DNA of 42,943 bases, taken from NCBI GenBank assembly GCA_029262855.1, contig JAJCYP010000107.1:1-42943 (forward strand). Direction: 5' to 3'. Each line of letters opens with the position of its first letter. Position 1 is the stretch's first letter. The notes beneath the pieces are model-generated. The model saw only the letters and a program-made list of their open reading frames with translations, ran no database searches and was not told the DNA's origin. Of this stretch, positions 4,297 through 34,788 are shown piece by piece. The position numbers and the translations under genes are program-made. The stretch is from Bacteroidota bacterium (lineage in GTDB: Bacteria; Bacteroidota; Rhodothermia; Rhodothermales; UBA10348).

Positions 4297-4927
4297 AGGA
4301 GTACTAGGAGGCCTGGTTTCGTCAACGTTACTTGTCTGGGCGTGTGTTGGCGCCGTGTTCTTGGCATCGTGTGATAGCGGCGTGAATGAAGATCAGGTTG
4401 GGCTCGACCTGGAGCCTTTGATGCAGGCGGAGGTCTCGAATGGAGAGCTCAGTGCCAGGATCGATTCCCAAGGCAACATTTCAAGGGTGGAGTGGAAGCA
4501 CACCGACAATACCGGGCTGGAGGCATCCGTGGGTTCCATTAACGGGGGACTTTTGCTAGCCACCACTGAGTCGGGTGCGCGCAGTTACTCGGCGTCCAGG
4601 GCGCTGGGACTTCTTGGTGCTCCGGCGATTGTTGAGCACGCCAGCGATACGTTGGGTCTCTTCTTTCTTCGCCAGGAGGCAGCTCAGACTCAGGCGGACA
4701 ACTGGCCGGCACACCTGGGAGCACCCGTCAACGAGGACGGTTCGGTCCGAGTGTACGGAGACCAAATGGTCTGGGCTTTGTTCGGAGACAAACCCTCTAC
4801 GCAAGACCCGGTGGGGATTAGAGTGGGAGCCTCAATGTTCCTCGCGGACAAGCCTGGTCTTGAGGACGTGCTGTTCCCGAGGGGCGCGTTATGCCCGAAA
4901 CGAAGTCAGAGCTGTACCGAGCATTGA
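4289..4927 (+). CDS. lipoprotein of unknown function, probably truncated
   Basis: The ATG at 4289 overlaps the end of the Ig-like remnant. The 212-residue product begins with a type II signal peptide: M-C-K-G, a hydrophobic core V-S-S-T-L-L-V-W-A-C-V-G-A-V-F, then lipobox L-A-S-C followed by D-S-G. The mature part has alternating hydrophilic segments (beta-rich by eye), such as G-E-L-S-A-R-I-D-S-Q-G-N-I-S and G-D-Q-M-V-W-A-L-F-G-D. I recognise no domain. The last ~15 residues (G-A-L-C-P-K-R-S-Q-S-C-T-E-H) differ in character from the rest, and no gene follows for 140 bp, so a deletion or frameshift near 4880 has probably removed the C-terminal part. The protein would be anchored to a membrane by lipid, through Lgt. 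Confidence 0.55.
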   Translation: MCKGVLGGLVSSTLLVWACVGAVFLASCDSGVNEDQVGLDLEPLMQAEVSNGELSARIDSQGNISRVEWKHTDNTGLEASVGSINGGLLLATTESGARSYSASRALGLLGAPAIVEHASDTLGLFFLRQEAAQTQADNWPAHLGAPVNEDGSVRVYGDQMVWALFGDKPSTQDPVGIRVGASMFLADKPGLEDVLFPRGALCPKRSQSCTEH

Positions 4928-5528: not shown

Positions 5529-5948
5529 TTACAGTATTTTTTGCCCCCTGGCGCTGCGTCGCCAAAGGGCGGGGCTTCTTCCGTGGAACCGTCTGAAGGC
5601 GTTTATAAAAGCGGCCCCGGACCGGTAGCCCAGCGCAAAGCCAATGTGAGAAACACTAGCGCCGGTGCCGCCAACCAGGAGGCCTGCTAGCGACATTCGG
5701 TGGTGGGTGACATACGCCTGCGGAGTCCGTCCGACGTAATAAGAGAAGCGTGCGGATGTGTTCTTGTCTCCGATGGAACCGCATATTGAACCCTGACCAA
5801 GCCGGTGTGATTCGAGGAACATGGTGTCGTTCAGCCTCGCCAGCATGCAGGACACGTCCCGAGGCCAGTCAGCGCGAGTCAGGGTAAACTGCGATTCCGC
5901 GCAAGCGCTTCTTGCTTGTGCCAAGTCGGCGGACGATGTTTTGCTCAT
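5529..5948 (-). CDS. AraC-family DNA-binding domain protein
   Basis: This 139-residue protein consists almost entirely of the double helix-turn-helix of AraC/XylS regulators. The second HTH is clear: V-S-H-I-G-F-A-L-G-Y-R-S-G-A-A-F-I-N-A-F-R-R-F-H-G-R-S-P. It is preceded by R-T-P-Q-A-Y-V-T-H-H-R-M. The first HTH lies around residues 40-80. There is no N-terminal sensor domain, so the protein is about half the usual AraC length (250-300) and resembles the stand-alone type. A candidate target is the lipoprotein gene just downstream. Surrounding genes are degraded, so it may be a remnant of a larger regulator, although it has a normal ATG start. Confidence 0.7.
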   Translation of the reverse strand: MSKTSSADLAQARSACAESQFTLTRADWPRDVSCMLARLNDTMFLESHRLGQGSICGSIGDKNTSARFSYYVGRTPQAYVTHHRMSLAGLLVGGTGASVSHIGFALGYRSGAAFINAFRRFHGRSPALWRRSARGQKIL

Positions 5949-6097
5949 GGAAGTACTTCAATCGGATCCGTTTTGGCCAGTGCTGCTCGTCCTCACCCAT
6001 AAAAACGAAATCCGAGTCTATTCAACGACAGCGCGTCAGGGAGGCAGCCAAGTTTTCGCGACTTTGCAGGCTGCGTGACACTGCCCGACTGGACGGA

Positions 6098-6827
6098 ATG
6101 ATGAGATTGCGATTGCTGCTCACAATCTGTGTTCTGTTGGTCGCCTGTGATTCAGGCCCAATTGAAGCGCAGCCCGAGCTGGTCTGCACGCAGGAGTCAG
6201 TTCCAGGCGTTCTTATGCCACTGGAGATAGGCAACTATTGGGATATAGAGGCTCAGAAGGGAAATGGCGAGGTGGTGGACACTTTTCGAACGCAAATAAC
6301 TACCAAACTGGATCCCGCTACCTATGGAATCGAACAGGCATATGTGGCGGAAGACTTCAACCTCTCATCTCCCAATGATATCAAGAAGCGGCTTATCTGG
6401 AAGAACGAGATCGATGGACTCTTGCTCGCGGGACTTATTTCCGGCGAAGACACTGTCCTCTATAATTTTAGAAAGTATCCACTTTCTCCGGCGGTGGGAC
6501 AAGAGATTCAATCCTATAGGGTGGGCGCCACAGGCACCCAAGGAGTCTACGAGCGAGTAGACTCAACCAAATGGACGGTGTTCAAAACGGGCCATATCGT
6601 CGATACGCCAGTTCGACAGTTTGTGACTAGCGTTCTTGTGTATACGACTGAACGCCCCCTTCCCGACGTATCAGCGTCAGACACGCTACGAACAGATTGC
6701 TCCGGGAATTGGTGTTGTTGCAAGGGACTGGAACAGACTCGAAGGCCACCAGCCCAATCTGGCCTCGTTCAGGCAAAGGCTCGTTGATTTGTGCATCAAG
6801 AAACCGCAGACACCAAATTCCCTCTGA
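6098..6827 (+). pseudogene. lipoprotein gene with a frameshift near the 3' end
   Basis: From ATG-ATG at 6098/6101 the product has a signal peptide (L-R-L-L-L-T-I-C-V-L-L) and lipobox L-V-A-C-D-S-G. The mature part begins with P-L-E-I-G-N-Y-W-D-I-E, a pattern I associate with periplasmic lipoproteins of Bacteroidota relatives. Near 6685 the frame turns into a cysteine-rich tail (S-G-N-W-C-C-C-K) ending at 6787. The +1 frame instead gives R-Y-E-Q-I-A-P-G-I-G-V-V-A-R-D-W-N-R-L and ends at 6827, which looks like the authentic C-terminus. A single-base indel between about 6650 and 6690 is the simplest explanation. Function is unknown. The original length would be about 240 residues. Confidence 0.55.
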
Positions 6828-8979: not shown

Positions 8980-9398
8980 CAGCCTACACCGGGTCTCCCA
9001 ACCTGAAGATTCCAAAGCTCCGCCATGGGCCTCCGCAGCACCAATCGCCCTTCCATCAGTGAAGGATCGAAGTTCAGAAACCCGTGCACCAGATAGATCT
9101 CCTCCGGACTGCAGTCCAAAAGGAACTTGCATTCGCGGTCGCCCTTCCGATGATCCCTCGTCCAGACGGCACCGACCAGGCCGGTCGCCGTCGTGCCGAC
9201 AAAAACGTCTATCTCCTCGCCGTCTGACCCCACAGTCTCGTTCACGAATCCGTAGTCGATGGGGTACACAATCCCCGTGTGAACCGGATGCGTCGAGCGG
9301 CGAGGCCGATCCACGGTCACACCGTTGGTCCGAATCATCGTCTCCCAGTCGGACCAGTCAAGCGCCGAGCCCCACGCGATTGCGAGTCGTTCATCCAT
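8976..9398 (-). CDS. inorganic pyrophosphatase-like protein (short form)
   Basis: This 140-residue protein carries the core of soluble family I pyrophosphatases: G-I-V-Y-P-I-D-Y-G-F-V, then G-S-D-G-E-E-I-D-V-F-V. The classical signature is D-x-D-[PE]-x-D; here it reads D-G-E-E-I-D, so one metal-binding Asp is a Glu. At 140 residues it is shorter than the usual ~175. Short proteins of this type are common and often annotated as pyrophosphatase, but activity should not be assumed. The start ATG overlaps the aspS stop (TGATG at 9400-9396), so the two are translationally coupled. Hydrolysis of PPi released by aminoacylation would be a sensible link, but that is inference. Confidence 0.7.
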   Translation of the reverse strand: MDERLAIAWGSALDWSDWETMIRTNGVTVDRPRRSTHPVHTGIVYPIDYGFVNETVGSDGEEIDVFVGTTATGLVGAVWTRDHRKGDRECKFLLDCSPEEIYLVHGFLNFDPSLMEGRLVLRRPMAELWNLQVGRPGVGC

Positions 9399-11239
9399 CA
9401 GTCCTCCTTCGGCGCCGTCACAGCGATGTGCAGATCACGCAGCTGATGCGCATCCACGACATCCGGTGACACGACCATGGTCTCCTGGGCGCTCTGTGTC
9501 TTCGGGAAGGCGATGACGTCGCGCAGCGATTTGGCCCCCGCGAGAAGCATCACGATCCGGTCCAGACCGAATGCAATGCCGCCGTGGGGCGGGGCCCCGA
9601 AGCGGAACGCATCCAGCAGGAAACCGAAACGCTGCTGGGCTTCTTCCTCATCGATACCAAGCGCAGCAAACATCTGCCGCTGGATCTCGGGGTTGTGGAT
9701 ACGGATGGATCCGCCGCCGATCTCATTGCCGTTCAGCGTGATGTCGTACGCCCGGGCCCGGACCGCACCGGGGTCCGTGGCCATCAGGTGCATGTCCTCG
9801 GGGTGGGGCGACGTGAACGGGTGGTGCATGGCATGGAATCGTCCCGAGCCCTCATCCCACTCCAGAAGCGGGAAGTCTGTGATCCAGGCAAACTGCCAGG
9901 GCCCGTCGGGTCCGTCGCCAATGAGCTCGAGATCCCGGGCCACGTGCAGTCGCAGGTCTCCCATCTGCAGGTGAACCTTCGGAGCCTCGCCGGCCAGGAT
10001 GAGAACCAGATCTCCGGTCTTGGCGCCGATGGCCGCGGCTGCGCGGTCGACAACCTCCGCGGGCAGCACCTCGGCCTTGACGCTGGAGTGCGTGGGCCCG
10101 CCGTCGGAGGGCAGCTTGAAGTAGACCAGGCCGCCGGCGCCGATCTGCTTCCGGACGATGTCCTTGTCCAGACGATCCATGACGCCGCGCCCGCGATCGC
10201 CTTCGCCGGGGACCACGATGGCCAGAATCTTGCCGCCTGTCTCGATCACGTTGTCGAAGACCCGGAAACCACTGCCGGTGAAGGCTTCCGTCGCGTCCTG
10301 GATTTCGAGGCCGAACCGGAGATCCGGCTTGTCGGATCCGAAGCGGCGCACTGCGTCGGCGTAGGTCAGACGCACAACGGGAAGCGGCAGTTCGTACCCC
10401 TTCAGGTCACGCCAGATCTGGGCAATCAGTCGATCGAAGGTCTCGTAAATGAGCTCTTCCGTGGGGAAGGTCATCTCGACATCGATCTGGGTAAACTCGG
10501 GCTGGCGATCCGCGCGGAGATCCTCATCCCGGAAGCACTTGGTGATCTGGAAGTACCGGTCCATGCCGGCCACCATGAGGATCTGCTTGTAGGTCTGCGG
10601 ACTCTGGGGGAGGGCGAAGAACTTGCCCGGATGGACGCGACTGGGAACGAGGAAGTCGCGCGCGCCCTCGGGCGTCGACTTCATGAGAACCGGCGTCTCG
10701 ATTTCCAGAAAGGACTCCGCGTGGAAGAAGCGCCTGACCGACTGGTAGAGCTCGCTCCGCAGAACAATGTTGTCCCGCATCTGGGGACGCCTCAGGTCCA
10801 GATAGCGGTACTTGAGTCGCAGATCCTCGTTGACGTGCTGGGCCTTCTCCTCGTGGGTGGAGACCGGAAAGGGGATGGCGTCGGCGCGGTTGAGGACAAT
10901 CAGGTCGTCCACACGGACCTCGATCTCGCCTGTGGCCAGCTTCGTATTGATGGTCTCGTCTGACCGGCGCGTGACGGAACCCTCGACCGAAATGACCCAC
11001 TCGCTACGCAACGCCTCGGCAATGTGGAGCGCGCCTTCGTCGTCCTGCGGCGAGAGCACAATCTGGGTCAGGCCGTAGCGGTCCCGGAGGTCGATGAAAA
11101 TCACGCCTCCCAGGTCACGGCGGGTATCCACCCAGCCCTTCAACGTGACCTTGCTGCCGATGTCATCGATACCCAGCTCGCCGCAGGTATGCGTGCGGTA
11201 TGAGTGGGTATCCGGCTGTCCGATGGAGGAGGTGCTCAT
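9398..11239 (-). CDS. aspS: aspartyl-tRNA synthetase
   Basis: This is a 613-residue class IIb synthetase that charges tRNA-Asp in the cytoplasm. The N-terminal OB-fold anticodon-binding domain is at about 15-120 (V-T-L-K-G-W-V-D-T-R-R-D-L-G-G-V-I-F-I-D-L-R-D). Motif 2 reads C-F-R-D-E-D-L-R-A-D-R-Q-P-E-F-T-Q-I-D. A bacterial GAD insertion lies at about 300-430, and motif 3 reads G-I-A-F-G-L-D-R-I-V-M-L-L. The length matches the bacterial form with the GAD insert. Whether it also charges tRNA-Asn cannot be decided here. The ATG at 11239 is supported by the conserved YRTHTCGEL start. It is coupled to the pyrophosphatase-like gene downstream, and a small hairpin with a U-run lies upstream. Confidence 0.95.
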   Translation of the reverse strand: MSTSSIGQPDTHSYRTHTCGELGIDDIGSKVTLKGWVDTRRDLGGVIFIDLRDRYGLTQIVLSPQDDEGALHIAEALRSEWVISVEGSVTRRSDETINTKLATGEIEVRVDDLIVLNRADAIPFPVSTHEEKAQHVNEDLRLKYRYLDLRRPQMRDNIVLRSELYQSVRRFFHAESFLEIETPVLMKSTPEGARDFLVPSRVHPGKFFALPQSPQTYKQILMVAGMDRYFQITKCFRDEDLRADRQPEFTQIDVEMTFPTEELIYETFDRLIAQIWRDLKGYELPLPVVRLTYADAVRRFGSDKPDLRFGLEIQDATEAFTGSGFRVFDNVIETGGKILAIVVPGEGDRGRGVMDRLDKDIVRKQIGAGGLVYFKLPSDGGPTHSSVKAEVLPAEVVDRAAAAIGAKTGDLVLILAGEAPKVHLQMGDLRLHVARDLELIGDGPDGPWQFAWITDFPLLEWDEGSGRFHAMHHPFTSPHPEDMHLMATDPGAVRARAYDITLNGNEIGGGSIRIHNPEIQRQMFAALGIDEEEAQQRFGFLLDAFRFGAPPHGGIAFGLDRIVMLLAGAKSLRDVIAFPKTQSAQETMVVSPDVVDAHQLRDLHIAVTAPKED

Positions 11240-11431: not shown

Positions 11432-12943
11432 ATGTCTGATTTTACCAGTACTGCCGCAGCGCCCGATCCCTCCGGCGCCACATTCTTCGGTCACCCGCGC
11501 GGCCTCGCCACGCTGTTCTTTACCGAAATGTGGGAGCGGTTCTCGTACTACGGGATGCGGGCGCTGCTGATTCTGTTCATGACCGAGACCACGCTCTCGG
11601 CCAATCCGGGGCTTGGGCTGGGCGATGCGCCGGCGGCGGCCATCTACGGTCTCTACACGGCACTGGTCTATCTGCTCTCCCTACCGGGCGGTTGGGTCGC
11701 CGACCAGATCTGGGGGCAACGAAAGGCTGTGTTTGTCGGGGGCTGCATCATCGCAGCGGGCCACTTCTCGATGGCCGTCCCGTCGACGACATTCTTCTTC
11801 CTGGGTCTGGTACTCATCGTACTCGGGACGGGGCTTCTCAAGCCCAATGTGTCCACCGTAGTCGCGGAGCTCTATCCCGAAGGCGGCGCGCGACGGGACG
11901 CCGGTTTCTCCATTTTCTACATGGGCATCAATCTGGGGGCGTTCCTCGGACCGATCATCGCCGGCTACTTTGGCGAGGGCATCAACTACCATTACGGGTT
12001 CTCCGTGGCCGGCTTCGGCATGGTGCTCGGGCTTATCCAGTACCGGTACGGGTATAAGTATCTCGGCGAGATTGGCAAGCTCCAAACCGACAAGACGCCC
12101 GGTCAGGTGAGCGCCCTGGAGCGGAAGTTCTACATGGTTGTTGCGGCGACGCTCGGCGTTGTCGCCCTGTTTGGGTACCTGGTTTCCATTGGCACGATTC
12201 CCCTGACGCTCACCGAAATCGCCCAGGGCCTCGGGGGCAGCGTGCTCGTTGTTGTGGGGCTCTACTTCGTCTACCTCATCGTGGCCGGTGGTCACAATAC
12301 AGAGGAGAAGAAGCGCCTCGGCATCATCTTCTGGCTGTTCATTCTGGCGGCCATTTTCTGGTCGGGCTTTGAGCAGGCCGGGTCCTCGCTCAACCTCTTT
12401 GCAGATCGGATGACGGACCGGATGATCGGCGGTTTCGAGGTGCCGGCGAGCTGGCTGCAGAGCGTCAACTCGACCTTCATCATCATCTTTGCCCCGGTCT
12501 TTGGCTGGCTCTGGGTGACCCTGGCCCAGATCAATCGACATCCGAGTTTCCTCTACAAGTTTGCGCTCGGCCTGCTGGGTCTCGCCGCCGGTTTCTTCGT
12601 CATCTCCTGGGGTGCGGCGAATGCCACCGAGGCCGTTGGCGCGTCCATGGCGTGGCTGATCGTCATGTACTTCTTCCACACGGTCGGGGAGCTTTGCCTC
12701 TCGCCAGTCGGACTGTCGTCGATGACCAAGCTGGCACCCGCCGGGCGCGTGGGTCAGATGATGGGCATCTGGTTTGTCGCGACCGCGCTGGGGAATCTCA
12801 TTGCCGGCCTCGTGGCAGGCAGCCTCGAGTCGCTACCGGCCGGCGAGCTGTTCTCGACCGTCGCCATGATCACGGGCGGAGCAGGCATCTTTGCTTTGGT
12901 AGCGGCACCCTTCCTCAAACGCTTCACGGGCGGAATCGAATAG
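11432..12943 (+). CDS. proton-dependent oligopeptide transporter (POT/PTR family)
   Basis: This 503-residue inner-membrane symporter carries the family hallmark E-x-x-E-R-F at residues 32-37 (E-M-W-E-R-F-S-Y-Y-G), which couples protons to peptide uptake. The second PTR motif is visible around residues 150-175 (D-A-G-F-S-I-F-Y-M-G-I-N-L-G-A-F-L-G-P). About 14 hydrophobic segments are present, as in bacterial members. The F-E-Q-A-G-S-S-L-N stretch in helix 7 is also typical. It imports di- and tripeptides with protons. It is divergent from aspS and convergent with an outer-membrane protein gene; a 15-bp tandem repeat fills the gap to that gene. Confidence 0.92.
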   Translation: MSDFTSTAAAPDPSGATFFGHPRGLATLFFTEMWERFSYYGMRALLILFMTETTLSANPGLGLGDAPAAAIYGLYTALVYLLSLPGGWVADQIWGQRKAVFVGGCIIAAGHFSMAVPSTTFFFLGLVLIVLGTGLLKPNVSTVVAELYPEGGARRDAGFSIFYMGINLGAFLGPIIAGYFGEGINYHYGFSVAGFGMVLGLIQYRYGYKYLGEIGKLQTDKTPGQVSALERKFYMVVAATLGVVALFGYLVSIGTIPLTLTEIAQGLGGSVLVVVGLYFVYLIVAGGHNTEEKKRLGIIFWLFILAAIFWSGFEQAGSSLNLFADRMTDRMIGGFEVPASWLQSVNSTFIIIFAPVFGWLWVTLAQINRHPSFLYKFALGLLGLAAGFFVISWGAANATEAVGASMAWLIVMYFFHTVGELCLSPVGLSSMTKLAPAGRVGQMMGIWFVATALGNLIAGLVAGSLESLPAGELFSTVAMITGGAGIFALVAAPFLKRFTGGIE

Positions 12944-12996
12944 GCGGCGGCCCTCGGAGCGGCACCCGTCGGGGCGGCGCCCGTCGGCGCGGCGCC
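12944..12996. repeat. 15-bp GC-rich tandem repeat, 3.5 copies
   Basis: The 53 bp between two convergent stop codons consist of GCGGCGGCCCTCGGA, GCGGCACCCGTCGGG, GCGGCGCCCGTCGGC and the partial copy GCGGCGCC. The array begins at the base after the transporter stop and ends in the complement of the barrel gene's stop. The units are rich in G and C and could fold, so a bidirectional terminator role is possible, but no U-run is present. Confidence 0.7.
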
Positions 12997-14696
12997 TAGA
13001 ACGTCGGGTTCAGCCGCAGCCAGAGCGTGGGCTCCAGGCCCGTACCCATGTCGCGGAGTGGCCACGCCAGTTCGAATCTGATCTGGCGGTCATCCAGCGC
13101 GATGCCGAAGCCCGCGGCGGGAATCACGTCGTCCACCGAGAAGTCCTTCCCGGACAGGCCATTCGTCCAGCCGGCATCGGCCAGTGCGAAGAGCGTCACA
13201 CCATCGAGAATGCCGTCGAATGGATCCACATCGTAGAACGCCATCTCGGCATTCACGAGGAGCATCTCGCTGCCGCGGAAGACGTTCTGCGGGTAGGCCC
13301 GGACCGAGCCGGCACCGCCGAGCGTGAAGCTCTTCTGGATGGGCAGTTCTCCCTTCGAAGTCCCGGCGCGGGCGCGGAGCGAGAGCCCCATATCCCGCCC
13401 CGTGTGGAGGTAGGCCCGGACGTCTCCGATGTAGCGATTGAAGTTGAAGTCGCCGCCCATGGTCTTGCCGAATTCGGCCTCCCCCCTGAAGGCGATGCCG
13501 CTCGGGATCCAGCGAAGTCCGCGGATCTTCCCACCGTCAACCGTGACCACCATGCTCTGCATGCGGCCCTCGTCGATGTCCGGATTGCTCCGGAAGGAAT
13601 CGCCCCCAAAAAGGGACCAGGTGGCGTTCTGGCCCAGGCTTGAGTAGTCATCACTGCGGTAGGCAACCGTGGCCTGGAGCAGAGGAGTCACCCGGGCGGC
13701 CGCGTAGAGCGTGTAGCCCTCGGTCTGGTAGTAATCGAAAAAATCCGTGCGGAAAAGGACGGCGGCCAATGAGTTCTCGGCCCAGCCGGCCTTCCACAGG
13801 TCGTCGGTGGCCGTTTCCACACGATAGGCGCCACCAATCTTGATGTCGAAGTCCTGGGTGCTGTAGGAATGACCCAGACGCGCCTCGGCACCCGCCTCGT
13901 AGCGCCATTCATCCAGTCCAAACGAGCGCCCGACCTGCCCGTAGATCCGCGCGCGGTCGTAGGAATCCCAGTCCATGGGTTTGCGGCGAATGCCCAGCGT
14001 GCGCCCATCGACCCGGTTGTACCGAATCGAGGAGATCGGCCGGTAGGTGGAGGTCTCGGTGAAGGGCCAGCGGTCTCCGAAATCGCCCACAAAGGACGGG
14101 GCATACGAACGGAAGCGATGCCGCCGCCAATCCGATCGGTCACGGCGATACCGGGTTCGGCGATCGTCCCACTCGTCCTCGACGTCGTCCTTCCAGTCCT
14201 CATCGTTCGACCGGTCGGCCCAGGCCTCAGCCCTCCGCTCCCAGCGTTCACCCCAACGTTCTCCCCATGCTTCGGCGCGCTGGCCGAATTCTTCGAACCG
14301 GTCCCTTTGGCGGCCATGACGATCCCGGAGTTCGTCCAATCGATCCTCCTCATCCCGGACCGATGACAGCAGCCTTGAAACGCGGCGCGCGTCTGAGTCG
14401 TGACCATCATCGCGAAGTTCGTCCAGGACCTCTTCGATCATGTCCTCCGCCTCATCGAGACGGTCGTCCGCGTCGTCGTAATCGCCGTATCCGATCTCAT
14501 CGGCTGCGGTCTGCAGTCGCCTTGCGGCCCTGCGAAGATCGCTGCGATGGCCCCTGGAGAGGTCATCGCCAAGCTCCTCGGCACGCTCGGCAAGCGCCGA
14601 AATTCGATCCTGTGCCCGATCAACCTGATCAGCATAGTCCTGGGCCAGGGCGGGGGAGACGAAGAGAAAAAGAAGCAGTAGCAGTCGGGCCTTCAT
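12996..14696 (-). CDS. outer-membrane protein: charged coiled coil plus Omp85-like barrel
   Basis: This 566-residue protein has a signal peptide at its ATG (MKARLLLLLFLFVSPALA). Residues ~20-190 are extremely charged and helical (repeated R-D-R, D-D-A-D-D-R-L-D-E-A-E-D, W-G-E-R-W-G-E-R-W), consistent with a periplasmic coiled coil. From ~200 a beta-barrel follows, with alternating strands. Near the end it has F-T-L-G-G-A-G-S-V-R-A-Y-P-Q-N, resembling the VRGY loop of Omp85/BamA/TamA proteins with Gly changed to Ala, and it ends in phenylalanine (L-R-L-N-P-T-F) like a BAM signal. No POTRA domains are seen, so it is not BamA. It might be an Omp85-related transporter or surface protein. The next gene upstream encodes a polysaccharide glycosyltransferase. 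Confidence 0.6.
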   Translation of the reverse strand: MKARLLLLLFLFVSPALAQDYADQVDRAQDRISALAERAEELGDDLSRGHRSDLRRAARRLQTAADEIGYGDYDDADDRLDEAEDMIEEVLDELRDDGHDSDARRVSRLLSSVRDEEDRLDELRDRHGRQRDRFEEFGQRAEAWGERWGERWERRAEAWADRSNDEDWKDDVEDEWDDRRTRYRRDRSDWRRHRFRSYAPSFVGDFGDRWPFTETSTYRPISSIRYNRVDGRTLGIRRKPMDWDSYDRARIYGQVGRSFGLDEWRYEAGAEARLGHSYSTQDFDIKIGGAYRVETATDDLWKAGWAENSLAAVLFRTDFFDYYQTEGYTLYAAARVTPLLQATVAYRSDDYSSLGQNATWSLFGGDSFRSNPDIDEGRMQSMVVTVDGGKIRGLRWIPSGIAFRGEAEFGKTMGGDFNFNRYIGDVRAYLHTGRDMGLSLRARAGTSKGELPIQKSFTLGGAGSVRAYPQNVFRGSEMLLVNAEMAFYDVDPFDGILDGVTLFALADAGWTNGLSGKDFSVDDVIPAAGFGIALDDRQIRFELAWPLRDMGTGLEPTLWLRLNPTF

Positions 14697-14779
14697 GACG
14701 CGATCGGGGGATAGGTGTGGGGTGGCGGCCGTCCTCCGGGGCCGCATATCAAACTCCATACGACCCGGTGGCGCGGTGT

Positions 14780-14851: not shown

Positions 14852-16051
14852 TCACGATTCGATGGCGTGGAAGGAGGTGGTCGAACGCGTGGCCAGGCGC
14901 AGGGCTGTCAGGACGACCCGCTGGGGGAGGGCGAAGGGTCGGTCGCCGAGAAGGGCGGCCTTTCGTGCGGCGGTCAGCATCGAGGAGGCGAAGAGGTCGG
15001 GATCCCACTCGGCGATGATCGCGCGCGATCGGCGGCTCATCTGGCCACGATCCGACGAGGCCATCGAGAGCAAGGCGCTGGTCAGGCCGGCGCGGTCTTC
15101 GGGCGAGAACCGGAATCCGTTCTCCCCGGGCCGGACCAGGTCATGGGTCGCGCCCGCACCTGTCGACGCCACTACCGGCAGGCCGGCAGCCATGGCTTCG
15201 TTAATCACGAGTGCCCATTGGTCTACCGAGGCCGGGTGCACGAAGGCACCCGCGTGGGCATAGTAACCGGGTATCTCGTCGATCTGACGGAAGCCCGCAA
15301 AGACGACGCCTTCTCCCGCCTCAGACTCCAACTGCCCGCGTAGGGGTCCGTCACCCAGCATCACGAGTGGCCACGGCTGCTCGGCCCGGAGGCGATAGTC
15401 GTCGTAGGCGCCGAGCAACATCGAGAGGTTCTTCCGGGCAATGAACCGGTTCGACGCGAGGAAATACGGCGTCTCGATTCCGGCCGGTGGCTGAGAGGCT
15501 GCGGCTTTGCCGGCGAAATACTCGTTGTCCACCACGTCATAGCCGAGCGAGATGGCGTCATGCGAAATGCCGAGATGCTCGAGATAGGCGCGGGAACGGG
15601 TGCCTGCCGTGACGGCCGAGTCGTAGGCCCCGAGGAGGAGTCGCTTGACCCACTCGCGGGCCGCGGACCGCTCGGCGTCATCGGCCTTGCTGTCGGTCAT
15701 CACAACCGCGCCCTTTCGATTGCGGCGACACCACGAGACACAGGCTCGAGAGTCGGGAAATGAGTACGTGTGAATGGCCACGGCGTCGGGGGCGATTCGG
15801 TCCAGCTGGCGGGTGACCTCGAGATGCATCTCGGCCGGCGTCACGTCTTCAAACTGCCTTCCTGGAAACACCTGCACACGCTCGAAGGGCACGTCGTCCT
15901 GCTCCTCGCGCCAGGCGTACACGGAATCAAGGGAGGCGGTCTCCAGGGCGATGAGTTCGACGCCCTCCTTTTCGCACAGGGCGTGGGTCGCCCGCAGGCG
16001 CGCCAGGTGGTACGGGCCCAGGCGGGGCCACTGGATCACGAGCCGTTTCAT
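14852..16051 (-). CDS. GT4-type glycosyltransferase
   Basis: This 399-residue protein has the two-Rossmann GT-B layout. The N-terminal half begins [15 protein letters not shown]. The C-terminal nucleotide-sugar domain contains S-N-R-F-I-A-R-K-N-L, L-G-D-G-P-L, and the retaining-GT4 signature P-A-S-V-D-Q-W-A-L-V-I-N-E-A-M-A-A-G-L-P-V-V-A-S (about residues 280-305), in which E-x7-E is replaced by D-x7-E. It probably adds one sugar of the surface-polysaccharide repeat on the cytoplasmic side. It is the last gene of the seven-gene operon, and its ATG overlaps the previous stop (ATGA). The donor sugar is unknown. Confidence 0.8.
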   Translation of the reverse strand: MKRLVIQWPRLGPYHLARLRATHALCEKEGVELIALETASLDSVYAWREEQDDVPFERVQVFPGRQFEDVTPAEMHLEVTRQLDRIAPDAVAIHTYSFPDSRACVSWCRRNRKGAVVMTDSKADDAERSAAREWVKRLLLGAYDSAVTAGTRSRAYLEHLGISHDAISLGYDVVDNEYFAGKAAASQPPAGIETPYFLASNRFIARKNLSMLLGAYDDYRLRAEQPWPLVMLGDGPLRGQLESEAGEGVVFAGFRQIDEIPGYYAHAGAFVHPASVDQWALVINEAMAAGLPVVASTGAGATHDLVRPGENGFRFSPEDRAGLTSALLSMASSDRGQMSRRSRAIIAEWDPDLFASSMLTAARKAALLGDRPFALPQRVVLTALRLATRSTTSFHAIES

Positions 16052-17244
16052 TGGAGGACCGCGTCGAAGATAGTGGATGCGAAGTGGTCCGCATGGTTCA
16101 TCTGAGCAAACGCGTGGGCCCGGTTCGGATTGAAGGGAGACTCGCCACCATCTTCCCGGCCGGCAAGATCCAGCATCCGATCCAATTCCCGGGCCAAGGC
16201 CGCTGGGTCTGAGGTGTCAACGGCAATCCCCAGTTGATGGGCCGAAATGGTCTTGCCCATCAGGCCATATTCCGGACCAACAACGGGTGTGTTGGCTGCG
16301 GCCGCGCGAATCAGGACGTGACTGGACCCAATGTGGCGCCGGTACGCAACCAGTGCCACGTCTGCCGCCTGCATCAAGTCCTGACCTTCTTCGCCCGGGA
16401 CATAGCGGTCCTGATGCACAATGTGGGTCGTGGCACGGGCTGCCTGGATAGAGGAAGAAATCCTATCGCGCTCGGCGTCTGGAATGGGGCCGGCAACGAC
16501 CAGCGTGATTGGCGTCTCCACGCGGGGCAGGGCGGCAAGCACTTCGTGGATGCCCTTGCGTGCGCTGACCACACCAAAGAAGAGGACCATTTTCCTGCCC
16601 TCAGGAACGCCCCAGCGCTCGCGGATGGCCGGGCCCGATTCGCCAAAACCTGCGGGATCGAGTCCGTCCGGAAGCCAGGTAAGTTTTTCGCTTCCGTGTG
16701 CTCTGACCGCGAAAGGATCAAGGCAGAGCACACTGTGGACTGCCGGATTGGCAAGCGTGGCCGACAAGAGCGCCCGCTTTCGAAGCCGAGTCAGCAGCGG
16801 CTCGCCCTCGTAGTGGAACGAAGGACGGAAGTAGATGCCAGAGACAGGAATCGGACCCGATGCGGGATGCTTGATCCGCCGGAGGGCGAGCGAAGCCTGA
16901 AGGTGATCAAGGTACATGACCAGAACTCGTTCTGGCCGGCGATTCTGGAGCACCTCAGATAGCACGCGCCCCTGAAGCAAATCCTGCCTCAAAACGTCAG
17001 CCAGCCCCATATGACCTTCGCGAAGGGGTTCCGGAAGCGCTATGGGAACGAGCTTGACAACGCTGGACTCCTGAGCGCCGAGCCACTGGGCGAAGTCCGG
17101 GTGCTCGCGGGCGAATGCCTCCGGAACGACGATCTCCAGGAGACCCCGCTCCGAGCCGGCCACCCAGGACCGTGCGAGCATTTCCAGGTACGTCCGATGG
17201 TGCCCGCCGGTGTAGAGGTCGAATAGTAGGAGGCGCGCGCTCAC
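16048..17244 (-). CDS. GT4-like glycosyltransferase
   Basis: This 398-residue protein begins [19 protein letters not shown] and has a GT-B C-terminal domain ([17 protein letters not shown], then [18 protein letters not shown]). The usual acidic E-x7-E is replaced by S-x7-A, so it is a divergent member. It starts with GTG, overlapping the UDP-xylose synthase stop (GTGA). It is expected to transfer a sugar during repeat-unit assembly, alongside the GT4 enzyme downstream. Because the catalytic signature is weak, acceptor, donor and even activity are uncertain. Confidence 0.7.
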
Positions 17245-18221
17245 TGCAGCCTGTCACCACCGGATTGCCGGGTCAGTAGGTCGTCGAAGTAGTCAATGGT
17301 TTTCCGAAGCCCCTCGGCCACCGTGGTGGAGGGCTCCCACTTCAACGTGTCCCGGGCCAGCGAAATGTCGGGCTGGCGCATGTAGGGGTCATCCGGCGGT
17401 GCAGGCTTGTAGGCAATGCTGGACCCAGTGCCGGTCATCTCAATGATGGTCTCGGCCAGAGAGACAATAGTCTGCTCGGTTGGGTTGCCGAGGTTAATGG
17501 GGCCGGTGACCTCCTCGTCAGAATTCATGAGTCGAATCAGCGCGTCGACCAGGTCGGCCACATAGCAAAACGAGCGCGTCTGCTTGCCGGTGCCGTAAAT
17601 GGTGATGGGGTTTCCCTGCAGCGCCTGCACAATAAAATTCGACACCACCCGGCCGTCGTTGGGGTGCATTCTGGGCCCGTAGGTGTTAAAAATACGGGCC
17701 ACCTTGATGGGCAGCTGGTGCTGACGGTTGTAGTCAAAGAACAACGTTTCCGCACAGCGCTTTCCCTCATCATAGCAGGACCGGGGTCCGATAGGGTTTA
17801 CGTTCCCCCAGTAGGACTCGGATTGAGGGTGCTCTTCGGGATCTCCGTAGACCTCACTGGTGGAGGCCTGCAGGATGGTCGCGCCGGTACGCTTTGCCAG
17901 CCCCAGCATGTTGATGGCTCCGTGTACGCTGGTCTTGGTGGTCTGGACCGGATCGCGTTGGTAATGGACGGGGGATGCGGGACAGGCCAGGTTATAGATC
18001 TGATCGACCTCCACATAGAGTGGAAACGTAACGTCGTGCCGCATCAACTCGAACATGGGGTTGCCGATGTAGCCTGCCACATTCCGCCGGGTGCCGGTGT
18101 AGTAATTGTCTACCGCCAATACCTCAGAGCCGCGAGCGAGCAGCGCCTCGCAAAGGTGGGAACCAATGAACCCCGCGCCGCCTGTGATCAGGACTTTCTT
18201 GTGCTGGGCTACATTGTTCAT
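17241..18221 (-). CDS. UDP-glucuronate decarboxylase (UDP-xylose synthase)
   Basis: This is a 326-residue extended short-chain dehydrogenase. The NAD-binding G-G-A-G-F-I-G-S-H is at about 14-22. UXS-specific blocks follow: [23 protein letters not shown], catalytic Y-D-E-G-K-R, then I-F-N-T-Y-G-P-R-M and D-G-R-V-V-S-N-F-I. Enzymes of this family oxidise and decarboxylate UDP-glucuronate to UDP-xylose in the cytoplasm, which would supply xylose to the glycosyltransferases encoded just downstream. Its ATG overlaps the stop of the epimerase-like gene (ATGA) and its stop overlaps the next GTG. No UDP-glucose dehydrogenase is seen in the window, so UDP-glucuronate must come from elsewhere. Confidence 0.88.
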
Positions 18222-19282
18222 ATTGCGGATCGCTGCTGCCAGCCTTCGATGATCTCGGCAATGATCTGGTCGATCCCAATCGAAATATCCCAGGCAGGAT
18301 AGTGTTCTTTAAGGCGGGAGAGATCACTGTAGTACACAATGTGATCTCCCTTTCGTGCCTGCTCCGACATGGTGTAGTTCATGGTGTTGCCGCTGGCCGC
18401 TTCCATCTTGGCGATGGCCTCCAGCATGGAGACTGAGTTGCCCTTTCCACCTCCCATATTGTACACCTCCCCACTTCTGGGCGCCCGAATAAACTCATGG
18501 ATGAATCGCGCCACGTCGTGCCCGTGAATGTTATCGCGGACCTGCTTGCCCTTGTAGCCAAAGATGGTGTACGGCTGTCCAGTTACCGCACATTTGGCCA
18601 GATAGCTCAGGAATCCGTGCAGTTCCACTCCGGCATGGTTGGGTCCGGTCAGGCAGCCTCCCCGCAGGCAGCAGGTGGACATCCCAAAGTAACGGCCGTA
18701 CTCCTGAACCATGACATCAGAGGCCACCTTTGATGCCCCGAACAGGGAGTGCATGGTGTGATCGATGGGAAAGTCCTCTCCGATGCCGGACTGCCATTTT
18801 GGCTCGGCGTACTCCCAGCGCGTCTCCAACTCTACGAGATCCAGATGGTTGGGGCCATCGCCGTAGACCTTGTTCGTGGACATGTGCACGAAGGTCGAAT
18901 CGGGTGCGTGGCGGCGAGTGGCCTCCAGCAAGTTCAACGTCCCCACCGCATTGACATCGAAGTCGTCGAAGGGAATGTCTGCGGCCTTGTCGTGGCTCGG
19001 CTGTGCAGCAGCATGAACGATTGCATCCGGCTTTATGCGCTCGATCAGATTCAGCACGCCCTCCCGATCCCGAATGTCCAGATCGAAGTGCTGGTAGTCT
19101 TCCAGTTGCTTCAGTCGGTCACGGCTCACCGTAGTGTCTCCGCCGGCCCCGAAAAATTGTGCCCGCATGTTGTTGTCCACGCCGCAAACCTGCCATTGCT
19201 CTCCACCGGGCCGGTTCAGGAAGAAGTCCGCTACGGCACTTCCGATGAGTCCGGCCGAACCGGTGACGATAATCGTTCGCAT
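18218..19282 (-). CDS. CDP-paratose 2-epimerase-like NAD-dependent epimerase
   Basis: This 354-residue extended SDR starts at ATG 19282, with the Rossmann motif [17 protein letters not shown] at its very N-terminus. Longer starts would run into the upstream flippase gene. It has [13 protein letters not shown] and the family-typical [17 protein letters not shown] and G-K-Q-V-R-D-N-I-H. This is the pattern of RfbE-like (tyvelose) epimerases. The catalytic Y-x-x-x-K position reads F-G-A-S-K, so the usual Tyr is Phe; I recall the same replacement in relatives. The substrate is probably a nucleotide sugar other than CDP-paratose, since no CDP-sugar pathway genes adjoin. It lies in the polysaccharide operon. 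Confidence 0.7.
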
Positions 19283-19286
19283 AGAA

Positions 19287-20609
19287 TCAGGATTTGGAAA
19301 GGGGCGGGGACACGGATACGATCTGAAAGCGGGTCCAAAGTCCCAGGGTGGCTCCAAACGATCCGCCAATGAAAACAGCCAGGAGACCGGCAGTTCCGTA
19401 CTGCCAGATGGCCAGGACGAAGAGGATCCCGACCGCTCCCGTGACCGACGCCATGAACTGGCCCAGAAAGCGCTGATCGTCCGCTGCGATCAATGAGATG
19501 GAGAGGACCGAGCTCAGGCACATCATCGGATAGAGCAGGCCCAGCCATTGAAGCGTTCGTCCGGCGCCGGCGTAGGCCTCGGGGTCCTTCACGATGAAGT
19601 CCATGATCGCGCTGCCTCCAATTCCGAGACCCAGTCCAAGGAGGCCAGAGATGGCCAGCATACCCATTACTCCCTTGAGGACAACCTGACGAAAGTCGGC
19701 GAGATTTCCCGTGCCCCAGGAGGCGGACATCCTGGGCAAAAGCGCCGCCGTCGCGAGGGCCGGGAGGAGAAGCATGGCCTCAACGATGCGGAAGGCGGCG
19801 CCGAATCGCCCGACCTCGGCTGATCCTTCGAAGAAATCCAGGATGACCGGACCCATCCGGGTGTAGGCGATGACCGCGATGGCGAAGACGCCCAGCGGGG
19901 CCGCCACACGCAGGTTCTGCTTCAGGAAGGAGGCGCTGAGTACCTTGAACTCGAAGGGCGCAATGCGGAAGGCCACGAACCAAAGCGTTCCCACGAGCGC
20001 GAACAGCATCCCCACCGTCATGCCCAGCAGCGTTCCGGTAGCGGTCCCGGTAGAAAGCAGCATGATGCTTCCGCCCGTCAGGACCAGGAGCTTCTCGAGC
20101 ATCACCGAGATGGATTCGTACCGGAGGACATGGAAGGCCCGGAAGAACACGCGGCTGAATCCGATCAGAAACACCGAGAGGCCGTAGACGCCGGCCAGGC
20201 CGAGTGCCGTCAGGCGCTCGTCGCTCGCTCCCAGGGCGGCCGCGATCCCGATGACCGACACAACGACGACGATCCCCAGGCCCCCCCGAAAGACGAGGAA
20301 GTTGGAGAAGTAGCGCCAGGCCTGGTCGCGACTCCGGGCGACTTCCCGTGTCACGAAATCATTGAGACCCAGGTCTGTCACGGACGCGGCGATGATCATC
20401 AACCACAGCGCCCAGTTCATCAGCCCGTAGGCTTCCGGGCTCAGATTGCGGATGCAGAGGTAGCTGATGAAGAAGAACCAGAGCGGCGAAACCGCGGCGC
20501 TGCCCATCCCGAGCCAAGTGATATTCCGGATGATGCCATCGGGTCGGGGCGCGATGGGATGGGGATCCCGGCTCTCCACGCGCGGTGTGCCCGAGTCCAG
20601 GGGGCTCAC
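19287..20609 (-). CDS. wzx: polysaccharide flippase, Wzx-like (MOP superfamily)
   Basis: This 440-residue inner-membrane protein has about 12-14 hydrophobic segments. Family features include an N-terminal block around [15 protein letters not shown], then [14 protein letters not shown], and V-T-R-E-V-A-R-S between helices 2 and 3. Wzx proteins flip undecaprenyl-linked repeat units across the inner membrane. I start at GTG 20609, which overlaps the wzz stop (GTGA). A TTG at 20678 would add 23 arginine-, glycine- and alanine-rich residues inside wzz. The next gene follows after 4 bp. The symbol reflects role and context; sequence alone does not separate Wzx from related MOP exporters. Confidence 0.8.
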
Positions 20610-21832
20610 GCCCGGGCCGCCCGCTCGGAAGCCTGCCGCAGCTTGGCCGCAAGATCGGCGCTGTTGCTTCTCCACCAAGTCGAGAGCAGGACGTACAGCA
20701 CCACAAGGATGAACGCCGACAAGGTGGCCGCGATCACGATGATCGACCGCTTGGGACTGTCCTTCTCGACCGGCGGAACGGCCGCGTCGACGATTTGGAG
20801 CGCCTCCATTTGCTGCTGCTCCTCAAAGCGGGCCTGCTCCAGCATGGGGGCGACGAACTCCAGGATCTTCTCCTGGATGGTCTTCTCCATCTCGATGTCC
20901 AGGAAGAGGCGGACTGCCTCGGGTACCTGACTCTGCGGGACCGGCATGATCATTTCGCGCCCCGCCAGGGCAGCCTGATACTTGCGGTTGGACGCTTTGA
21001 CCACCTCTTCCAGGCCACGAACTGTCGTGTTGTTCTCGCCCAGCTGGCTCCTGAGTGCCTCAAACTGAACCTCGGCCTGGATGGCCGCCACCCGGAGCTG
21101 AGCCAGCTGGTCGAAGAAGGCCTCCGTCTGCGCCTGCAGATCGTAGATGCCGTACCGAATCTGGAAGGACTTCAGCGAGTCCAGCAGCGCAGCGCGGCTG
21201 GACTCCGACTCCTCGTACCGCAGTTCCACGTACCGCCGGAAGTTGCCGGCCGTCGCCGAGGAGAGTTCGTTATTGACCTTGTTCAGCTCCTCAAGCATGA
21301 AATTGGCCATGGCGGCCGCGCGCACCGGATCCTTGTCGATCACCTCGATGGACAGGAAGTCATACTCATTGTCGACGTACAACTCGATGTTGTCCGCGAG
21401 GTCCTTCAGCGCGTCCTCCATCGGCGTGTCGCTGTCCGTGTACTCGTACACCGTGACGAGGTCGAACTCCCTGACTACCTGTTCGAGTACCCGCCGGCTT
21501 TCCAGGATGGCGAGGTATCGCACATAGTCCCCGCCGGAGGATCCCAAAAGCGATTGGGCCGCGGAGCCCAGATTGCCGAGGAGGGCGCCCGCGAGGCCGC
21601 TGCTGCCGGACTCGGGCATCAGCAGTCGGCTGGTCGCCCGATAGTAGTTGGGCAGCATCAGCGAGAGAACCACCGAGAGCACCGCGATTGCGCCGGTCAC
21701 ACCGATGATCAGTCCCCTCCGATTCCACAGCGTGCCCAGGGTTTGCCACATCTGCCGTTCGGCAATGGTGCGGCGCTCATCGTCCGTCCGTCCTGACTGT
21801 GGCAGCCCACTCTCTGTTCGATTCGCGTCCAT
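20606..21832 (-). CDS. wzz: polysaccharide chain-length determinant, Wzz-like
   Basis: This 408-residue protein has the polysaccharide co-polymerase layout. TM1 is at about 40-60 (I-I-G-V-T-G-A-I-A-V-L-S-V-V-L-S), then L-P-N-Y-Y-R-A-T-S-R-L-L. A long alpha-helical periplasmic region (~170-330) is rich in E, L, R and Q. The C-terminal TM is at about 365-385 (S-I-I-V-I-A-A-T-L-S-A-F-I-L-V-V-L-Y), preceded by P-P-V-E-K-D-S-P-K-R. There is no cytoplasmic tyrosine-kinase domain. It would set the chain length of the exported polymer and contact Wza. It starts 4 bp after the wza stop and overlaps the wzx start. Confidence 0.8.
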   Translation of the reverse strand: MDANRTESGLPQSGRTDDERRTIAERQMWQTLGTLWNRRGLIIGVTGAIAVLSVVLSLMLPNYYRATSRLLMPESGSSGLAGALLGNLGSAAQSLLGSSGGDYVRYLAILESRRVLEQVVREFDLVTVYEYTDSDTPMEDALKDLADNIELYVDNEYDFLSIEVIDKDPVRAAAMANFMLEELNKVNNELSSATAGNFRRYVELRYEESESSRAALLDSLKSFQIRYGIYDLQAQTEAFFDQLAQLRVAAIQAEVQFEALRSQLGENNTTVRGLEEVVKASNRKYQAALAGREMIMPVPQSQVPEAVRLFLDIEMEKTIQEKILEFVAPMLEQARFEEQQQMEALQIVDAAVPPVEKDSPKRSIIVIAATLSAFILVVLYVLLSTWWRSNSADLAAKLRQASERAARA

Positions 21833-21836
21833 CCTG

Positions 21837-23603
21837 CTAGCGGGTCAAGCTGACGATGAGGGCCACGAGCGTGGCCAGGGTACCGATGGACTGCACCACC
21901 GTCTGGGCGACGCGGATTCGCGCGTCTGATCGGAGGCTTTGCTCCTGAATGACCAATCGCTGCATCTCGGCGTTCTCGGCCAGGTCCTCGCGGCGATCCA
22001 CGAACACCACATCGCCCGACATCACAACAGCGTTTTCGTCCCGAATGAGTTCGCCCGTGTTGGCGCGGAGTAGGTAAATGTCGGAGGCATGAAGGCCCCG
22101 GCCGCCGGCTGCCTGCACGTAGTACTCGAGCGGCTGGCCGCCTGAGACCAGAACGAAGCCCGGCCGGATGACCTGTCCGGCGACGAAGACCGTGTTGTCA
22201 TCGCGCGGAATAACCAGGCGATCACCGTCTCGCAGGAGGATCGCTGCCGTGTTGCCGGCTAGCATCTCCTCGACATTGACCGACACCCGGTTCTGGGTGC
22301 GCAGCTCTTGGGCGAAGTATGCCCGGCTGAGGAAATCCAGGTCCGTCAGCCGCAGTTGCTGGAGGATGGCCAGGGTGTCGGCCCGCATCAGGCGATCCAG
22401 ATCGGGCTCGGGCATAATGCGGTCTTCCGCCTTCAAGCCGAGGGCCGGGTCCGGCAGCGCGCGACGTTCCAGAAACGCTGCCGTTTGCTGGGCCTCTGGC
22501 CGCAGTCCACCTGCCAGTTCGAGCAAATCGCGGAGCGAGGTTTCTCCCTCCTGGATCGCGTAGGTACCCGGGTGCTGGACCATGCCTTCCACCGTCGCCA
22601 CGCCACCCGCGAGTCGGCCGCGGGTCACCGAGACGTGGTCCCTGGGAGCCAGTCCGATGGCGGCGCCGATCTGGCCGAGCGCCTCGTGGAGCGGCAGGGT
22701 TCGTGCCTGGTTCGTGCCGTGGGACAGCACCCGGACCGTGGCCGGGAGGGCGGGAGCCTGAAAGAGGCCCGCCGCCTGAAGGAGGGACCGGACGTTGTCG
22801 TCTGGGCGCGCGTCGTATCCGCCCGGGAAAGGCACCGCGCCGTCCACGTAGACCGACTCGAAGTCGGGATCGTAGCCCGGGACGAGAATCACGTCGCCGT
22901 CGCGGAGATAGGGGTTTTCGGAGACCTGGCCGGCCGAGTAGTACCGCATCAAATCGAGCCGGTCCTCCGAACCGTCACGGTGAATGACCGCGACATTTCG
23001 GAGCGATGGGCGGTACCTCGGATTCGTGACCGGAGCACGGGTGGTGTCCGAGAACGCCATTTCCAGGGCCGAGGAGACGCGGCCCACTGGGAGGGAGAGG
23101 ACCCGGCCGGGGACGGGTACCGCCCCCGAGACGTGGACGTAGAACTGTCGGGGCTGGGAGAGTGTGACGTCGACCGGGATGTTGCCGAAGGCGCCCTGCA
23201 GCGCCTCGATGGCAGCGGCGCGGGCCTGCGCGAGCGTCATGCCCGCGATGTCGACGCTACCGGCCTCGGGGAGCGGAAGGCGCCCATCGGCCGAGACCGG
23301 AATCGGAGCCGCGGATCCTTCGACCGAGCCGACGACGACCGTAAAAAAGTCGCCCGGGCCCACCATGTACTCGTCCGGATCGACCGCGCCTTCCATGGGA
23401 AGGAGACTCGAGACGATCATGCTCTCGGCCATGCGCCGGCGGAGGATGTCGAGCGGGTTATCCGAGGAGATACCGGAACTGCCTCCGGACGTCAGGATCT
23501 GGGCGGACGTGGCCGGCGCCAGCAGGGTCGCGGCAAGAATCGCGACGATTGCGCCAAGGGCAGCGGGCAACCGTCGGAAAAGAGGGGGGCGGGAAAGGGC
23601 CAA
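21837..23603 (-). CDS. wza: outer-membrane polysaccharide export protein, Wza-like
   Basis: From TTG 23603 the protein has 588 residues and an ordinary signal peptide (R-R-L-P-A-A-L-G-A-I-V-A-I-L-A-A-T-L-L-A-P-A-T-S-A). The Poly_export domain follows (Y-M-V-G-P-G-D-F-F-T-V-V-V, L-P-L-P-E-A-G-S-V-D-I-A-G-M-T), then several SLBB repeats with the V-x-G-x-V-x-x-P-G pattern (H-V-S-G-A-V-P-V-P-G, Y-V-D-G-A-V-P-F-P-G, V-E-G-M-V-Q-H-P-G, V-A-G-Q-V-I-R-P-G). It forms the outer-membrane exit channel. There is no lipobox, unlike E. coli Wza, and it is longer (588 versus about 380). The frame stays open to a TTG at 23741, but that would put 46 residues before the signal peptide and nearly meet ispE. The start is therefore uncertain. 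Confidence 0.8.
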   Translation of the reverse strand: MALSRPPLFRRLPAALGAIVAILAATLLAPATSAQILTSGGSSGISSDNPLDILRRRMAESMIVSSLLPMEGAVDPDEYMVGPGDFFTVVVGSVEGSAAPIPVSADGRLPLPEAGSVDIAGMTLAQARAAAIEALQGAFGNIPVDVTLSQPRQFYVHVSGAVPVPGRVLSLPVGRVSSALEMAFSDTTRAPVTNPRYRPSLRNVAVIHRDGSEDRLDLMRYYSAGQVSENPYLRDGDVILVPGYDPDFESVYVDGAVPFPGGYDARPDDNVRSLLQAAGLFQAPALPATVRVLSHGTNQARTLPLHEALGQIGAAIGLAPRDHVSVTRGRLAGGVATVEGMVQHPGTYAIQEGETSLRDLLELAGGLRPEAQQTAAFLERRALPDPALGLKAEDRIMPEPDLDRLMRADTLAILQQLRLTDLDFLSRAYFAQELRTQNRVSVNVEEMLAGNTAAILLRDGDRLVIPRDDNTVFVAGQVIRPGFVLVSGGQPLEYYVQAAGGRGLHASDIYLLRANTGELIRDENAVVMSGDVVFVDRREDLAENAEMQRLVIQEQSLRSDARIRVAQTVVQSIGTLATLVALIVSLTR

Positions 23604-23659
23604 AGGACTCGCGGTGATGCGTGGAGCAGAAAAACCGTACCGAGTAAGCAATAGGCCGC

Positions 23660-23683
23660 GAGAGATAGGATAGGAGAGATAGG
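23660..23683. repeat. direct repeat in the wza/ispE divergent region
   Basis: GAGAGATAGG occurs twice with a 14-bp period (23660-23669 and 23674-23683), in the 152-bp gap between the chosen wza start and ispE. The gap must hold both divergent promoters, so the repeat may be a regulator site. It could equally be coincidental. Confidence 0.3.
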
Positions 23684-23755
23684 TGCGTGCGGCCGGCTGC
23701 CGCAGAACCCGAAAACTACGCCTTCCTGTCGGCTCCTGCAACGTATTATCCGGAC

Positions 23756-33568: not shown

Positions 33569-33570
33569 CA

Positions 33571-34659: not shown

Positions 34660-34788
34660 GCCAATCGCCGATTCCGGCGGTTCTGCGCGCACGTATCCGC
34701 TCAAGGACATGGCAGTCCAGACGATACAGCGGGTGAGACCTCCAACATAGGAACGGCGATTCCCTCATTTTTCGGTATATCAAGGCTC
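34660..34788 (+). other. intergenic leader region of the propeller kinase
   Basis: The 129 bp between ispG and the kinase gene contain no gene. The last 35 bp are AT-rich (CTCATTTTTCGGTATATC) and may hold the kinase promoter, but no clean promoter boxes are visible. Confidence 0.3.

Follow-up and report, generated by a model that had tools for sequence, protein, structure and literature searches.

How might an outer-membrane barrel of the Omp85 kind work when the POTRA domains, to which Omp85 models give a central substrate-receiving role, are missing? The question is raised by one gene in a stretch of 42,943 nucleotides (the whole of which we call the window) from a Bacteroidota genome of the order Rhodothermales (contig JAJCYP010000107.1 of assembly GCA_029262855.1). 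The coding sequence, at 12996..14696 on the minus strand, with its ATG at 14696, specifies a protein of 566 residues, P0001. The sequence-only reading that preceded this work had seen in it an Omp85-like barrel preceded by a charged helical stretch where POTRA domains would be expected, and perhaps a distinct envelope protein linked to peptidoglycan spacing or polysaccharide export. Its predicted fold and a Pfam match identify P0001 as a secreted protein of the outer membrane whose barrel belongs to the Omp85 superfamily. Features of P0001 given below lie on the minus strand.

Barrel, motifs and N-terminal region of P0001

The AlphaFold2 model of P0001 was built on an alignment of 72 members, termed A2 (P0001 and 71 of the 80 loci kept from the genome scan described below). 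Its mean pLDDT is 86.6, and the barrel (residues 225-566, 12999..14024), which starts with the motif RYNRV[ED]G, is predicted confidently. The model has 15 strands of at least five residues, ten ahead of the long loop and five behind it, besides a 3-residue strand (225-227) that also precedes the loop; in the model of the relative L105 we count 11+5 barrel strands around the same loop. The best Foldseek match in the PDB has an E value of 5.6e-12, and the titles of the 50 PDB matches listed are those of BamA/BAM, TamA, SAM and TOC, with 5ayw titled only 'membrane complex'. According to VIA-align, the P0001 model matches TamA with a Z score of 21.7 (282 residues aligned at 3.8 Å) and both Sam50 and Deinococcus BamA with 21.6, the scores running from 21.7 to 19.8 among the 50 matches listed. 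TamA, Sam50 and BamA are the closest solved structures and a non-Omp85 barrel is not seen, so that the barrel first proposed from the letters alone is borne out.

The family models agree with the predicted fold. In P0001, the Pfam Omp85 model (PF01103) scores 31.3 bits, above its cut-off of 24, while DUF5686 (PF18939; 20.6 bits, cut-off 39.2), TpsB/ShlB (PF03865; 19.9, cut-off 22.7) and the NCBIfam Omp85_fam (27, cut-off 200) stay below theirs. Across A2, PF01103 matches 59 of the 72 members and DUF5686 66 (E 0.01), and Omp85_fam and the BamA model match 49 and 44, respectively (E 0.001). Neither a patatin nor a peptidoglycan-binding domain was found in P0001 by the Pfam scan (E up to 1), nor was CarboxypepD_reg.

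In Omp85 proteins, particular residues of the loop tip and of the inner wall count as hallmarks, and the loop arginine locks onto the inner barrel wall. The long loop of P0001, equivalent to L6, occupies residues 451-476 (13269..13346), before the last five strands, and carries LGGAGSVRAY with R466; the GGAGSVRAY string noticed earlier is found at residues 460-468, and the terminal Phe, noticed with it, is residue 566 (12999..13001). The wall motif, D507-x-G509, lies at 13170..13178. Both signature motifs that mark the Omp85/TpsB superfamily in the accessible part of PMC4490367, one at the loop tip and the other on the inner wall, are thus present in P0001. D507 and G509 are each kept in 72 of the 72 A2 members, and the C-terminal Phe in 70. 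The loop Arg is found in all 35 orthologues of P0001 (alignment A1) and in 47 of the 72 A2 members. The remaining 25 have P (17), N (4), Q (3) or H (1), and they are exactly the A2 part of the clade that includes the Ignavibacteriota and Chlorobiaceae records (loci among L099-L146). The positions of RYNRV[ED]G are kept in 34 or 35 of the 35 A1 orthologues and, save for E/D, are invariant in A2, partly by construction, since the A2 loci were found using the pattern RYNRV[ED]G[LF][VF]; A1 was assembled without this pattern. The sequence-only reading had also remarked on an Ala in place of a conserved loop Gly; the Ala is there, but position 467 varies among the A1 orthologues (G 15, A 14, S 6), so that the change is ordinary variation and a special meaning is rejected.

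Ahead of the barrel, about 190 residues follow the signal peptide. The latter, residues 1-18 (14643..14696), was assigned by eye; the start at 14696 gives a clean one, MKARLLLLLFLFVSPALA/Q, and an alternative upstream ATG at 14759 would give a product of 587 residues. A similar hydrophobic stretch opens most orthologues. Residues 19-163 (14208..14642), delimited by the model and by a profile match, form a charged region that is helical throughout in the model (helices 19-45, 48-69, 73-96 and 100-163), with 31% D/E and 19% K/R over residues 19-158 and a hydrophobic periodicity over 19-163 that peaks at 99 degrees (0.94, against 0.82 for the best of 500 shuffles). The pLDDT, taken by block, is 87-97 over residues 21-120, lower past 120 and below 50 across 159-208; residues 164-208 (14073..14207) are a charged linker, probably disordered. 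The same-genus orthologue is 48% identical in the helical part and 79% in the barrel. Third codon positions take most changes, with 53/43/98 differences at positions 1/2/3 over the 145 codons of the helical region, a pattern that marks the N-terminal reading frame as coding.

POTRA models gave no match in P0001 (Pfam, E up to 1) or in any of the 72 A2 members (E up to 0.01), although this library, in a positive control, does detect POTRA in three further Omp85 proteins encoded by the genome. That genome has nine places with an Omp85 domain, P0001 included; of the eight others (L148-L154 and L156), besides the three with POTRA, one has PD40 propeller repeats and four show the Omp85 domain alone, several of these frames being cut by the end of the locus. 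As the N-terminus is also all-helical in the model, a hidden POTRA fold, which would have spoken against the original description, is rejected, and the charged helical region in its place stands. A profile of the helical domain (A3, in which P0001 is itself a row) matches P0001 and no other protein in its genome. Of 14 genomes searched with it, 9 have one match each, with no second copy of the helical domain, and G010, G028, G038, G080 and G117 have none, although G010, judged by eye, does have a helical N-terminus. For the helical part, a known relative was sought and rejected: a profile of 22 orthologous N-termini matches generic helical proteins, the best being a designed coiled coil (E 1.4e-06), and the whole-protein search of solved structures gave helical matches only at E 0.74 or worse. 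Because the fold search barely covered the helical part, which was never folded alone, we do not claim a new fold for it.

A POTRA-less subfamily and its N-terminal modules

A scan of named genomes with the single P0001 sequence found no relative; with an alignment profile, it gave 107, of which 80 were kept. The subfamily is thereby found in Rhodothermota, Balneolota, Ignavibacteriota and KSB1, with single records in Chlorobiota, Calditrichota and Gemmatimonadota, a spread that is a lower bound because the scan required the RYNRV[ED]G[LF][VF] pattern. The record titles name Rhodothermales, Roseithermus, Rhodothermus, Salinivenus, Balneolaceae, Ignavibacteriae and KSB1, and once each Chlorobiaceae, Calditrichaeota and Gemmatimonadota, many others being titled just 'Bacteroidetes bacterium' or 'bacterium'. 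Some match is present in 82 of 119 relatives, and 55 places reach E 1e-35 or better, one per genome, that of the window included. The weaker matches are often longer proteins; the one in P0001's own genome is a protein with CarboxypepD_reg and DUF5686. Of 247 genomes sampled from the phylum, 55 have a match at E 1e-20, never more than one each. The subfamily is single-copy where sampled, and the suggestion of a distinct envelope protein is upheld.

What precedes the barrel varies by clade: a bactofilin-like β-helix, a helical rod, a short acidic stretch or nearly nothing. Bactofilin (PF04519) lies ahead of the barrel in sister clades, in 20 of the 72 A2 members (E 0.01); against a cut-off of 27.9 bits it is above in L119 (49.4) and below in L105 (17.8), whose model nevertheless has regular short strands at 105-182, as in a β-helix. 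About 390-400 residues precede the barrel in the KSB1 members L119, L134, L139, L145 and L147, where bactofilin-like segments can be seen by eye to repeat. In six members the N-terminus is just a short helix and an acidic stretch, and the Rhodothermus, Salinibacter-type and Balneolota orthologues carry next to nothing periplasmic before the barrel.

In a tree of 82 barrels, the β-helix members fall into two groups and the helical members into the Rhodothermales group, nine barrel-only rows of Rhodothermus/Salinibacter type being nested among the helical members (support 95). This is a 'quick' tree that lacks 8 of the 80 loci (L080, L138, L141, L100, L109, L123, L125 and L128). Of its 79 forks, 22 are open; it also has five long end branches, a long-branch warning in the Balneolota part and a distant outgroup of two rows that roots it at an unresolved fork. 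Six changes explain the five module labels, compared with a mean of 40.5 in shuffles; the labels were assigned by hand here and by length in the neighbour recount below, L052 being taken as barrel-only without a frame-break check. Since barrel-only orthologues nest in the helical clade, and A3 finds no helical domain in G028, G038, G080 and G117, the barrel appears to be the unit that is always kept.

Several known systems resemble P0001 in part. The TamA, BamA and Sam50 insertases share with it the barrel fold, the long loop with a VR[GA]Y-type tip, the D-x-G motif and the terminal Phe; unlike them, and unlike the BamA, TamA and TpsB subfamilies in that these are defined by POTRA, P0001 lacks POTRA and has a helical N-terminus, with an identity of 10-17% in the rows listed. 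POTRA-less Omp85 barrels have already been published: in the accessible part of Heinz and Lithgow 2014 (PMC4104836), noNterm, WD40- and Metallo-Omp85 subfamilies are defined, Omp85 barrels without POTRA of which some carry other N-terminal domains, and its section 10 names neither a helical-rod nor a bactofilin architecture among them. P0001 has an N-terminal extension and so is not a noNterm protein, although the Rhodothermus, Salinibacter-type and Balneolota orthologues come near. In the case of PlpD, the patatin-linked Omp85, the available text of PMC11116518 likewise describes an Omp85 barrel with an extra N-terminal domain, but P0001 has no patatin match. The P0001 barrel is related to the barrels of DUF5686 proteins (CarboxypepD_reg plus barrel), with which it shares the first barrel half and a similar opening motif and of which its genome has two paralogues; P0001 differs from them by its sub-threshold DUF5686 score and by the missing CarboxypepD_reg. 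We did not find the P0001 subfamily described in the literature searched, and neither bactofilin-barrel fusions (or 'bactofilin' with 'Omp85') nor 'DUF5686' were found by a full-text search whose coverage excludes most subscription papers and bioRxiv.

Candidate functions

The persistence of the barrel and its motifs where the N-terminal module is lost or swapped places the shared function in the barrel. We therefore tentatively favour, at somewhat less than an even chance, a specialised insertase or translocator that does without POTRA and whose periplasmic adaptors differ by clade, the activity being shared by the subfamily and residing in the barrel; with the module as an adaptor, this is preferred to a spacer. 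The barrel would handle one or a few outer-membrane or exported substrates, and its loop arginine may lock onto the inside of the barrel wall, as it does elsewhere among Omp85 proteins. The N-terminal part would be optional; in P0001, it may be a rod of helices, attached through a flexible charged linker and probably serving to dock a partner, which in Rhodothermales could conceivably be tied to the adjacent polysaccharide pathway. Some points weigh against this proposal. The clade-wide loss of the arginine hallmark sits badly with one shared insertase mechanism and keeps our confidence modest, and it is unclear how a substrate would be received without POTRA. In addition, the solved relatives listed share just 10-17% identity with P0001, and the A3 misses are weak evidence that the helical domain is absent, because A3 also misses diverged forms such as that of G010. 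A single-copy POTRA-less family that keeps its barrel and motifs behind a variable front module nonetheless offers a natural test of a barrel acting alone, and the loss of the loop arginine across one whole clade offers a second.

A doubtful alternative is that of an outer-membrane-anchored scaffold or tether, in which the barrel is a plugged anchor and the module binds peptidoglycan, itself or an inner-membrane partner and so organises the envelope. The Bactofilin matches before the same barrel, with L119 above the cut-off and β-helix-like strands in L105, are in its favour, and so are the Toastrack (DUF4097) and LiaF-type genes that, along with SDR genes, follow at several KSB1-type loci (named from cluster representatives). 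However, Toastrack is predicted to be intracellular (in the accessible part of PMC11237479), so that the KSB1 context alone does not put such partners in the periplasm. The sub-threshold Bactofilin score of L105 and the lack of a peptidoglycan-binding match in P0001 also count against a tether. Because some orthologues have almost no module, tethering cannot be the function common to all, and the peptidoglycan spacing put forward by the sequence-only reading is not supported as the shared role.

It is unlikely, in our estimate, that the protein helps to export polysaccharide or to retain it at the surface in Rhodothermales, where the gene often, but not always, ends a polysaccharide locus. In the window, such a locus lies upstream at 14852..23741 on the minus strand, with SLBB/Poly_export, Wzz-like and Wzx-like flippase genes, two SDR and two GT4-type glycosyltransferases by family matches. 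Neighbours were recounted in 32 helical-type and 13 distinct barrel-only Rhodothermota-type loci (14 barrel-only rows, L057 and L097 being the same gene), with the target open reading frame (ORF) forced and L064 excluded. Of the helical-type loci, 18 have five or more called genes upstream; in 13 of these, SLBB-/Wzz-type genes lie on the same strand no more than seven genes upstream, and every one of the 18 has some polysaccharide-type gene there, in many cases just a glycosyltransferase. Among the barrel-only loci, both measures give 4 of 13. The difference has a Fisher p of 0.03, calculated with one barrel-only locus counted twice and on related rows. In contrast, in L049, L065 and L067 (the latter two close relatives) the barrel gene is flanked by ispE and POT and no polysaccharide-cluster gene intervenes, unclassified ORFs there being unannotated, which makes the link a non-obligatory one; pdxJ instead adjoins the gene in many Ignavibacteriota-clade loci, and a Wza-type exporter gene is already present in the locus of the window. 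The search for orthologues and their neighbours thus supports the proposed polysaccharide link in part; in other phyla, the orthologues have different neighbours.

Two further readings are less probable. The barrels of this subfamily may have been turned into an anchor for periplasmic cytoskeleton-like modules. In Ignavibacteriota, KSB1, Calditrichota and Gemmatimonadota these would be bactofilin β-helices, which may polymerise beneath the outer membrane; in Rhodothermales, a rod of charged helices would stand in for them. We regard this as improbable, and it does not account for the barrel-only members, although the fusions do raise the possibility of a polymer-forming module at the periplasmic face of the outer membrane. 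A conduit for lipids or lipoproteins in the outer membrane, built on the Omp85 fold in the way that the accessible part of PMC13078400 proposes for the POTRA-less barrel BBJ25 of Borrelia (likened here without a sequence comparison), is similarly improbable, since BBJ25 sits in a seven-gene ABC/Lol-like cluster and no ABC or Lol-type family was found among the neighbour-cluster representatives scanned, most smaller clusters being unscanned.

Other genes around P0001

On its other side, P0001 faces a convergent POT peptide transporter (11432..12943, plus), beyond which lies the aspartyl-tRNA synthetase gene aspS (9398..11239, minus); both are conserved neighbours by family matches and neighbour tables. 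The tables come from a greedy longest-ORF caller and contain spurious ORFs, and those of neighbour clusters lack L041, L055, L079, L090, L122 and L131 and have the L064 row at wrong coordinates. A scan for regulatory sites gave one promoter-like and one terminator-like match, both within the P0001 gene and near the shuffle means. Beyond the GHMP kinase gene (ispE cluster) of the window, two adjacent transglycosylase-transpeptidase penicillin-binding proteins are encoded at 25646-27973 and 28856-31762 on the minus strand, and a PBP1A-type gene (a 328-aa part in L037) is in a neighbour cluster of 8 loci; nothing ties the penicillin-binding proteins of the window to P0001. The ORFs at 33547-34710 (minus) and at 4253-4927 and 5912-6787 (plus) have no Pfam match (E 0.001), and some are perhaps not genes.

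A secreted protein of about 600 residues (e.g., L121:5793-7586), without a Pfam or NCBIfam family, is encoded directly upstream of the barrel gene in all six loci of the short-acidic type and near it in L129, L145 and L119; of 7 Rhodothermales genomes searched, 6 encode distant relatives of this protein at other places.
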